The notes below the pieces were generated by a model, which had not been told where the DNA came from, did no database searches, and saw nothing but the letters and a program-made list of their open reading frames with translations. This document shows, one piece after another, positions 1,122 to 2,363 of a DNA stretch of 36,603 nucleotides (positions are counted from its first letter, which is position 1; the number at the start of each line of letters is the position of its first letter). Source of the stretch: Melioribacter roseus (GTDB lineage Bacteria > Bacteroidota > Ignavibacteria > Ignavibacteriales > Melioribacteraceae); contig DYHH01000034.1 of the NCBI GenBank assembly GCA_020724265.1, positions 1-36,603 on the forward strand, in the 5' to 3' direction. The position numbers and the translations under genes are program-made.

Positions 1122-1519
1122 GTGAATGAAAAGACTCTAAAATTTTGGGTAGATTCTTCGGACTATGATTTGGTAATTATGGAAGCAATGTTTGAAACAG
1201 ATAGGCTTCTATATGTCGGATTCATGGCTCATCAATCTATTGAAAAATTTTGAAGGGTTTTTATGTAAAACTCTATAATGAAATACCTCCTTTTACACAC
1301 AATCTTATTTTGTTAGCGGAAAAAATAAAATTAAAAAACGAATTAAGTGAAGATCAAATTGAATTATTAAGTATTTTGAATCCTCTCAATATTGAAGCTC
1401 GTTATCCAAAGTACAAAGAAGATTTGTTAAAAAGTTTATCAACAGATAAGTGTTTAGAAATAATTTCTAAAACAAAAGAACTACAAAAATGGGTGAAATC
1501 GAAATTAGAGATAGTGTAA
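1122..1519 (+). pseudogene. HEPN-domain protein interrupted by a -1 frameshift
   Basis: A GTG start at 1122 opens a frame of 43 codons that ends ...AHQSIEKF-stop (TGA at 1251). The HEPN sequence then continues without a gap in another frame from 1250: LKGFYVKLYNEIPPFTHNLI..., ending at 1519. Joined, it gives about 132 residues typical of the HEPN family (PF05168): the helix with ..QSIEKFLKG.., then PFTH, then EARYP. The break lies at GAAAAATTTTGAAGG; one extra T (or A) restores the frame. HEPN proteins of this type partner with a minimal nucleotidyltransferase, and one follows directly, overlapping by 31 bp. No canonical R-x4-6-H RNase motif is evident, so toxin activity cannot be assumed even if the frame were intact. 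It could be a decayed gene, a sequencing error in the short homopolymer, or slippage. Confidence 0.72.
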
Positions 1520-1815
1520 ATAAGTATATCAATCTTCTGAATAGATTTTTTGATCTTAAGATGGTTGTATTATACGGCTCATTTGCTAAAGGTAATGCAG
1601 ACGAAAATAGTGATATCGATTTAGCGGTCTTCATCAACAAAGATGAAGAAAATAGAGACCATCTTAAAGATTCTGCTTTACTAAATAAACTAATTTGTAA
1701 TACTGATTGCAGAATTGAACCGGTATTGTATTATTATAATGAACTTGAATCTCTTGAAGAAGCTAGCTTCATTTCCGATATTTTGAACTCAGGAATAGTT
1801 CTTTTTAAGAATTAA
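1489..1815 (+). CDS. Minimal nucleotidyltransferase (MNT) of a HEPN/MNT pair
   Basis: A 108-residue protein of the DNA polymerase beta-like nucleotidyltransferase superfamily. It shows the signature VLYGSFAKG followed by SDIDLAVF: the GS motif and the two metal-binding Asp of DxD (near residues 42-44). A later acidic residue in RIEPVLYY may complete the metal site. In described type VII toxin-antitoxin pairs the MNT antitoxin AMPylates or otherwise modifies the HEPN toxin; whether that holds here is inference. Its start lies inside the last 31 bases of the HEPN frame, so the two are probably co-transcribed. The MNT frame is intact while its HEPN partner is frameshifted. Confidence 0.85.
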   Translation: MGEIEIRDSVNKYINLLNRFFDLKMVVLYGSFAKGNADENSDIDLAVFINKDEENRDHLKDSALLNKLICNTDCRIEPVLYYYNELESLEEASFISDILNSGIVLFKN

Positions 1816-1848: not shown

Positions 1849-2181
1849 TTATTCTTTGTATTTCTTACTGATAAAAAATGATGCAACAAAGCCTAAACCA
1901 GTCATTGTAAATAGTAAAAACGGAACCCATTCCTCGTAGCCTGTTAATTCTTTAAGAAGCAGACCACCGCCGAGACCTAAACCAAAAAAGAAAGTTACAA
2001 TTCCTATTTTCAGCATTGCTAAAGGGTCACGCTTTTTACTATAAAGAGCCATCATCTGCTCGGTTGACAAACCGCGCTCAATAATTGTTGATCTTTCTCT
2101 ATACCGCAGATAAAAATACGCAATTAGAACTGCACCGGTCGAGAAAAATATTATTGGTACTACTATTACTTCAGAGCCCAT
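1849..2181 (-). CDS. Small membrane protein, DUF6249-like
   Basis: A 110-residue protein with an N-terminal membrane segment (about residues 5-25, VIVVPIIFFSTGAVLIAYFYL), a charged cytoplasmic stretch RYRERSTIIERGLS, and two further hydrophobic segments (about 58-80 and 86-104). This layout resembles the small DUF6249 proteins often found beside ECF sigma factor genes in Bacteroidota-type genomes (recognised by pattern, not by a search). AAGGAG sits before the ATG. It is transcribed divergently from the sigma factor and carries the same promoter-like motif, which suggests shared control. The biochemical role is unknown; a membrane sensor or an accessory of the sigma/anti-sigma circuit is only a guess. 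Confidence 0.7.
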   Translation of the reverse strand: MGSEVIVVPIIFFSTGAVLIAYFYLRYRERSTIIERGLSTEQMMALYSKKRDPLAMLKIGIVTFFFGLGLGGGLLLKELTGYEEWVPFLLFTMTGLGFVASFFISKKYKE

Positions 2182-2210
2182 TTTATTCTCCTTGTTTTTG
2201 TATCTAAAAC

Positions 2211-2241
2211 TTTTGACTTATTAATAAAAAAAAGGTTACAC
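2211..2241 (-). promoter_or_regulatory. ECF-type promoter motif, site 1 (towards DUF6249 gene)
   Basis: Read on the minus strand: TGTAACC (2240-2234), 16 nt, then GTCAAAA (from 2217). It shares both boxes and near-identical spacing with two other sites in the same intergenic region. It ends about 30 bp before the gene's ATG, a suitable distance for a -35/-10 promoter. Confidence 0.55.
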
Positions 2242-2282
2242 TCAATTTAATTTTATTGCACTTCTCATTTTTCTTTCACTTA

Positions 2283-2313
2283 TTATGACTGAAACTTTCG
2301 TATGTAGGTTACA
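2283..2313 (-). promoter_or_regulatory. ECF-type promoter motif, site 2 (minus strand)
   Basis: Read on the minus strand: TGTAACC (2313-2307), 17 nt, then GTCATAA (2289-2283). This is a second, upstream copy facing the DUF6249 gene, which may therefore have tandem promoters. Confidence 0.5.
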
Positions 2314-2332
2314 AGCTCATATTGGAATAATG

Positions 2333-2363
2333 TGTAACCTTTTTAGAGTTTCTTAAGTCATAA
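2333..2363 (+). promoter_or_regulatory. ECF-type promoter motif, site 3 (towards sigma factor gene)
   Basis: TGTAACC (2333-2339), 17 nt, then GTCATAA (2357-2363) on the plus strand, immediately before the sigma factor ATG at 2372. Transcription from it would give a very short leader. Together with site 1 it forms a perfect 12-bp inverted repeat (2230-2241 against 2332-2343). The arrangement suggests autoregulation. Confidence 0.55.

Follow-up and report, generated by a model that had tools for sequence, protein, structure and literature searches.

A conserved bipartite motif as the very probable autoregulated promoter of an ECF sigma factor gene and its divergent DUF6249 neighbour in Melioribacter roseus

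Autoregulated ECF sigma factors are, as a kind, textbook material. In Bacillus subtilis the SigW promoter reads TGAAAC-N16-CGTA and the SigX promoter TGTAAC-N17-CGAC, and both factors command larger envelope-stress regulons than the sigma factor studied here. The motif that we describe resembles both promoters, and SigW is the nearest solved relative of our sigma family profile (E 8.6e-48). According to the accessible part of one account of group IV sigma70 factors (PMC8103513), a CGT -10 element belonged to the early definition of ECF factors, and later definitions retain the domain criterion only. ECF-type promoters with a CGT -10 have been mapped in Flavobacterium psychrophilum as motif SM6; in the portion of that paper available to us (PMC9723704), one such promoter lies upstream of the ECF sigma/anti-sigma pair THC0290_1774/1773, as is probably the case at the present locus, and, unlike the sites studied here, SM6 is found before type IX secretion genes as well. 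No mention of DUF6249 was found in the text of the same paper. A protein with a class I anti-sigma domain is reported in the neighbourhood of only 6% of Bacteroidetes ECFs (PMC7406223, accessible part). Our literature searches returned no description of the module presented below: ‘DUF6249’ appeared only in a plant-kinase paper, ‘ECF sigma factor’ with ‘Ignavibacteria’ and a four-term Flavobacterium search gave no match, and none of the hits for ‘Melioribacter’ with ‘sigma factor’, judged by title or the start of the abstract, concerned the module. The main ECF re-classification (10.1093/nar/gkaa1229) lay outside the scope of these searches.

How does the Melioribacter roseus locus compare with these systems? 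The window, by which we mean the whole stretch of 36,603 nucleotides that was analysed, contains an ECF sigma factor gene and a gene for a small DUF6249 membrane protein, divergently arranged around a gap of 190 bp, all as the first-pass annotation had described (Table 1). Set against the canonical autoregulated operon as it appears in the accessible part of PMC8103513, the locus shares a two-domain sigma factor, an adjoining anti-sigma-like gene, AAC in the -35 element and a promoter-like site upstream of the sigma gene that would suit positive feedback. It differs in its -10 element, which is mostly (A/G/T)GTC and not CGT in the same order, in a sigma message that is probably leaderless, and in a strong-site regulon that apparently consists of the operon itself and one membrane protein. 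All three window sites carry AAC within the -35, and a C precedes GTC in 0/3, so that the textbook CGT is absent. As later definitions keep only the domain criterion, this absence weakens the fit to the textbook motif and not ECF membership.

Table 1. Features of the divergent locus in window coordinates
Feature	Position	Strand	Details
Putative autogenous sigma promoter	2333..2363	+	N17; -35 TGTAACC 2333-2339, -10 GTC 2357-2359; GTC to start codon 12 nt
Putative DUF6249-proximal promoter	2211..2240	-	N16; -35 TGTAACC 2240-2234, -10 GTC 2217-2215; GTC to start codon 33 nt
Putative DUF6249-distal promoter	2283..2313	-	N17; -35 TGTAACC 2313-2307, -10 GTC 2289-2287
ECF sigma factor gene, 188 aa	2372..2938	+	Pfam Sigma70_r2 2.9e-14, Sigma70_r4_2 3e-11
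Probable anti-sigma factor, 174 aa	2935..3459	+	Overlaps sigma stop codon; hydrophobic stretches (by eye)
DUF6249 small membrane protein, 110 aa, divergent	1849..2181	-	Pfam PF19762, 50.3 bits vs gathering cut-off 33
Shine-Dalgarno AGGAG of DUF6249 gene	2188..2192	-	From the sequence

The sigma factor scores 89.8 bits against the NCBIfam sigma70-ECF superfamily model (cut-off 42.9), and its domains are Sigma70_r2 and Sigma70_r4_2/r4 only, the two-domain composition of ECF (group IV) factors. Against the SigW equivalog model NF007223 it reaches 123.6 bits, under the cut-off of 209, and by this score it is not a SigW equivalog. Its closest named relatives come from Ignavibacteria and Melioribacteraceae metagenome genomes. 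The overlapping downstream frame likely forms an operon with the sigma gene. Nothing in Pfam scores above cut-off for this frame and its match to an RsrA-type model is weak (24.4 bits vs cut-off 62.5); its tblastn relatives directly follow the sigma gene in many related genomes. Position and the one weak match make it a probable anti-sigma factor. For the DUF6249 protein, an AlphaFold2 model built from 8 sequences is of moderate confidence (pLDDT 74.6, pTM 0.52), and a Foldseek comparison of this model with the PDB gave nothing at E <=0.001. Elsewhere in the window (1122-1815, plus strand) lies a HEPN/MNT-type pair whose HEPN gene, present as two pieces in different frames, seems to be broken in this assembly, the longer piece matching PF05168 above cut-off and the shorter scoring 19.1 bits vs 22; its nucleotidyltransferase partner (1489-1815) is open.

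Within the 190-bp gap the first-pass annotation had noticed three copies of TGTAACC-N16/17-GTCAWAA. All three are exact, with the coordinates and spacers that it gave. A search for TGTAACC-N15..18-GTCAWAA finds these 3 matches in the window and 0 in all 100 dinucleotide shuffles. The genome-wide search suggested at the outset located no further strict match in the 3.77 Mb of this genome, in which the reversed control pattern gives 0. With looser patterns the signal disappears: the N16 form with <=2 mismatches matches twice in the window vs 0.77 expected, which is no longer significant, and TGTAAC-N16..18-GTC occurs 49 times in the genome vs 53 for its reversed control, that is, without excess. 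Loose patterns are uninformative within the genome's own sequence. With a model built from 44 sites, the top ranks among the 150 of 4738 first-look candidates that were scored go to those of the window (E 0.002, 0.14 and 0.38), followed by a partial match at 1.8. The strong-site regulon in this genome thus appears, from these searches, to comprise the sigma operon and the DUF6249 transcript, and weaker targets may exist besides.

We interpret the three sites as promoters of the ECF sigma factor encoded beside them, which would be autoregulated, and we hold this reading to be very probable. The strongest support comes from comparison with 56 distinct orthologous sigma loci, a set that leaves out a truncated locus (L022), a duplicate (L032), the paralogues L066/L067 and the distant L039-L048; in 10/58 genomes searched there was no sigma match at E 1e-25. 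A site facing the sigma gene is present in 56/56 loci, of which L011, L013, L049 and L055 were counted only after the pattern had been widened post hoc to CGTAACC or AGTAACC; TGTAAC itself is found in 52/56, and the presence of AAC in 56/56 plus sites was required by the search pattern. At least one site in the direction opposite to sigma occurs in 54/56 loci, the exceptions being L016, where DUF6249 is unlinked, and L062, at a contig end. The tblastn search places a divergent DUF6249 homologue at 53/56 loci. The loci are related, some nearly identical (e.g. L002/L003, L051/L053, L056/L058), and the 56 counts are not independent events. The tandem promoters ascribed to DUF6249 on first reading are a frequent arrangement, with >=2 sites pointing away from sigma in 23/56 loci, and not a universal one. 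In one of the 56 loci, L013, two short open reading frames resembling a HicB/HicA toxin-antitoxin pair (by eye) lie between DUF6249 and sigma, and a promoter-like site is kept on either side of them in the divergent region.

Might these sites be without function, owing to chance or to the shared ancestry of AT-rich intergenic DNA? Neighbouring loci are presumably homologous, which would favour such a view. However, pairwise identity in the 44 plus sites whose spacer measures 17 bp is 98% for the boxes and 30% for the spacer cores. In the 13,586 bp upstream of sigma, taken to mean the intergenic DNA together with 30 bp of DUF6249, or <=350 bp at loci where DUF6249 was not found, there are 122 strict matches, whereas 200 first-order Markov versions contain 0.04 on average and 1 at most. 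The 112,071 bp that run from the sigma start to the ends of the loci contain 0. Chance or ancestry is refuted, as far as computation goes, by the box and spacer identities and by the excess of sites, and we assign it next to no probability. Both the genome-wide search and the comparison with relatives that had been suggested on first reading thus favour the first-pass proposal: the motif persists at all 56 loci while the spacer drifts.

The arrangement of the half-sites could also be taken to mean that TGTAACC/GGTTACA are operators of a dimeric transcription factor, whose palindromes would be the inverted repeats. A perfect inverted repeat had been claimed for two of the copies; it is real, and measures 13 bp (2229-2241 / 2332-2344) instead of 12, pairing the DUF6249-proximal minus site with the plus site. 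A second perfect repeat has a length of 8 bp. Moreover, the -35 of the DUF6249-distal site and the -35 of the sigma promoter stand back to back with 19 bp between them, and such boxes are 18-21 bp apart in 23/54 loci measured, a cluster left unexplained by the promoter reading alone. For this cluster, a compact ancestral layout is the sole explanation that we can offer. Yet in the other 31 loci the spacing runs from 10 to 601 bp, which means that no fixed palindrome is kept. In addition, every half-site was seen to have a GTC box 15-18 bp away on the strand that it occupies, the sites have a single orientation once the genes separate, and the repeat follows from like promoters that face away from each other. 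We consider the operator reading very unlikely and retain that of promoters.

Changes in gene order are informative in this respect. In G025 DUF6249 lies away from sigma and is nevertheless preceded by two tandem sites (L080), and the same is seen in G093, where DUF6249 is unlinked (L135). At L123 the two genes share a strand, with DUF6249 upstream of sigma, and it is DUF6249 that the site precedes; at L125, in a co-directional arrangement, a weaker TGTCACC form is found before DUF6249. As sites precede DUF6249 even when it is unlinked or co-directional, the motif goes with both genes and not with the gap between them, which upholds the proposal that the sites point at the sigma operon as well as at the DUF6249 gene. 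In a wider set from the phylum, 29 of 30 loci fetched contain a sigma factor of the same family, and a plus site is detected by a loose pattern in 25/27 loci where sigma does not directly follow DUF6249, 5 of the 27 coming from genomes already within the 56-locus set. By this pattern no plus site was found at L126 and L132, two phylum loci with an adjacent sigma.

Which sigma factor reads the sites? They could be ECF promoters recognized by another sigma factor of the genome, the locus being part of a foreign regulon and not autoregulated. The genome contains 16 genes with a Sigma70_r2 match, and at least one paralogous ECF, L105, has a similar motif of its own, TGTAACA-N17-GTC preceded by C; TGTAACC...CGTC is also found at some other sites of the family. 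However, the L105 motif differs at two places, with A after TGTAAC and C before GTC, and stands before L105's own genes in 15/15 loci found (the gene is present in 15/30 genomes searched). At the locus type studied here C precedes GTC in only 4/133 sites, although CGTC does occur at several loci elsewhere in the phylum. Five genomes of the family without the sigma at E 1e-25 (G004, G007, G019, G020 and G031) contain two strict matches, both CGTC. Finally, changes in the -35 accompany a change in sigma region 4: residue 165 is V in 68/70 GTAAC loci and T or A in 7/7 GAAAC/GCAAC loci, all seven of which are from other families of the same class. This covariation fits recognition by the adjacent sigma factor and is confounded by lineage. 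Taking these points together, we judge recognition by another sigma factor unlikely and continue with the adjacent one as the reader of the sites. In M. roseus the frame that follows L105 (G000:C8:3461-3967) is anti-sigma-like by eye, with no Pfam match above cut-off, and is itself followed by a gene for a DUF4252 protein.

A wider regulon was considered and rejected, because matches elsewhere are mostly of the CGTC kind or at chance level. The strict pattern TGTAACC-N16/17-GTCWWAA gives 63 matches in 38 genomes of the family vs 6 for the reversed control. Manual sorting assigns 42 of them to sigma or DUF6249 genes of the studied type and 21 to other places; CGTC is present in 14/21 of the latter vs 0/42 of the former. 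This distribution suggests that the 14 matches belong to another ECF regulon. The remaining 7 are close to the chance level set by the reversed control (6); two are inside long open reading frames (L069, L075), and by eye no gene recurs among the seven. One of them, in G002 of the same genus, is a site of the studied type that precedes a DUF4097 protein gene (L087). The best matches to this protein in the M. roseus genome adjoin a different ECF gene, where the strict pattern has no site: they are DUF4097 ‘toastrack’ matches at C35:2348-4395, close to the ECF gene L108 (G000:C35:858).

The CGTC sites deserve a separate mention. TGTAACC...CGTC sites are located 16-32 nt before genes at L070, L071, L072, L077, L079, L083, L084 and L088, and these genes often seem, by eye, to begin with a signal peptide. 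At L074 such a site stands before an ABC ATPase-like frame, and M. roseus itself has a similar CGTC-type site (L099) before a protein resembling that in L083. The CGTC sites probably represent a further ECF regulon in the family.

A second feature of the promoters concerns the sigma message. In 51/56 loci, 9-12 nt separate the end of GTC from the sigma start codon, the longer gaps being 22, 25, 55, 70 and 84 nt (L059, L035, L031, L009 and L007, respectively). DUF6249, by contrast, has its nearest site 26-112 nt from the start in 53 loci, with start codons extrapolated from tblastn. ECF transcripts usually begin several nucleotides after the -10. A start at that distance, combined with a gap of 9-12 nt, leaves a sigma leader of about 0-6 nt, and the sigma mRNA is thus probably leaderless or nearly so. 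No Shine-Dalgarno core lies between the -10 and the start codon of the window sigma gene, and a core-like sequence after the -10 is found in 2/56 sigma genes (L031, L050); an earlier count had given five sigma genes, four of them solely through letters of the promoter itself. Upstream of genes with a placeable start, a Shine-Dalgarno-like core is seen in 46/48 DUF6249 genes and in 45/47 anti-sigma-like genes, the latter count being partly forced, since the same stretch codes for the conserved end of sigma. A gap of 9-15 nt between GTC and the start recurs in 12 GTAAC-type loci elsewhere in the phylum. Among the seven GAAAC/GCAAC-type loci it is 11 and 13 nt in two and, with uncertain start codons, 23-55 nt in five. 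In F. psychrophilum leaderless messages constitute 5.5% of those mapped, as given in the accessible part of PMC9723704, and in Bacteroidetes/Chlorobi a method that considers sigma70-type boxes only predicted them in 1/37 genomes (PMC3160421, accessible part). The sigE p1 promoter of M. tuberculosis offers a precedent for a leaderless ECF-gene message (PMC4921905, likewise from the part available). Other ECF genes of the set present comparable distances: at L110 a -10-like box, CGTCTAAA, lies 4 nt before an ATG, and at several L105-type loci (L150-L153, L156-L158) a -10-like box is 14-16 nt before the start codon. Sigma genes of the studied type may not be the only ones with very short leaders.

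What is the place of DUF6249 in this circuit? The family occurs in 43/148 genomes of the phylum. In a second search over 148 phylum genomes, apparently the same set by the handles in both lists, 41/43 DUF6249 genomes and 0/105 others contain a sigma match at E <=1.2e-47; this cut was chosen after the scores had been seen, the best score among the 105 being 1.9e-46, and the sigma profile (A2) was built from DUF6249-linked sigmas, which biases it towards co-occurrence. In the remaining two DUF6249 genomes, G136 and G149, the adjacent sigma scores about 1e-44, a value that several genomes without DUF6249 (G121, G102, G176 and G159) also reach. By coordinates, sigma and DUF6249 lie <1 kb apart in 42/43 pairs, G093 being the unlinked one. 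DUF6249 is also present in three control genomes (Caulobacter, a Bacteroides and Haloferax), of which Caulobacter and Haloferax are outside the phylum. Because of the tight co-occurrence with sigma, a role as circuit component is likelier than that of a dispensable target, and DUF6249 probably belongs to the circuit as a fixed partner, a membrane effector or feedback element, rather than being there as a chance neighbour.

Based on these observations, we propose the following model. The probable membrane anti-sigma factor encoded next to sigma would, on the basis of what is known of the family, release the sigma factor, and free sigma would direct RNA polymerase to TGTAACC (-35) and GTC(A/T)(A/T)AA (-10), 16-17 bp apart. 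One site would drive the sigma/anti-sigma operon and so generate positive feedback, while the two others would drive the divergent DUF6249 gene, leading to production of the small membrane protein. As the sigma -10 is so near the ATG, its message would be leaderless or carry a few untranslated bases; the DUF6249 message would have an ordinary leader with a Shine-Dalgarno sequence. The positions of the sites, their conservation, the uniqueness of the strict motif, the co-occurrence of the genes and the spacing are observed directly; from them we infer that transcription starts at the sites and that the adjacent sigma reads them, that the sigma message has no leader, that the frame overlapping the sigma gene acts as an anti-sigma factor and that DUF6249 has a part in the circuit. 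These elements can be joined in a more ambitious scheme, a phylum-wide module of ECF sigma, membrane anti-sigma and DUF6249 whose only conserved targets would be its own operon and DUF6249, with DUF6249 as an obligate feedback or sensing element, in place of an ordinary effector, and a sigma message that is leaderless by conserved design. In such a module the autogenous promoter would abut the start codon, so that translation of sigma would escape the Shine-Dalgarno-dependent control to which its partners remain subject. We put this scheme forward tentatively, as a possibility that we rate somewhat below even.

Beyond the first reading of the locus, the analysis adds the phylum-wide association of sigma and DUF6249 and a sigma message that is probably leaderless. 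It provides a testable recognition sequence for a sigma family found across a phylum where little of the ECF regulation has been charted. DUF6249, a family so far without assigned function, becomes connected with a single sigma factor through co-occurrence, linkage and promoter alike. Finally, for a phylum in which leaderless messages have been reported as rare, the analysis predicts a sigma message whose leaderless or near-leaderless state is conserved.
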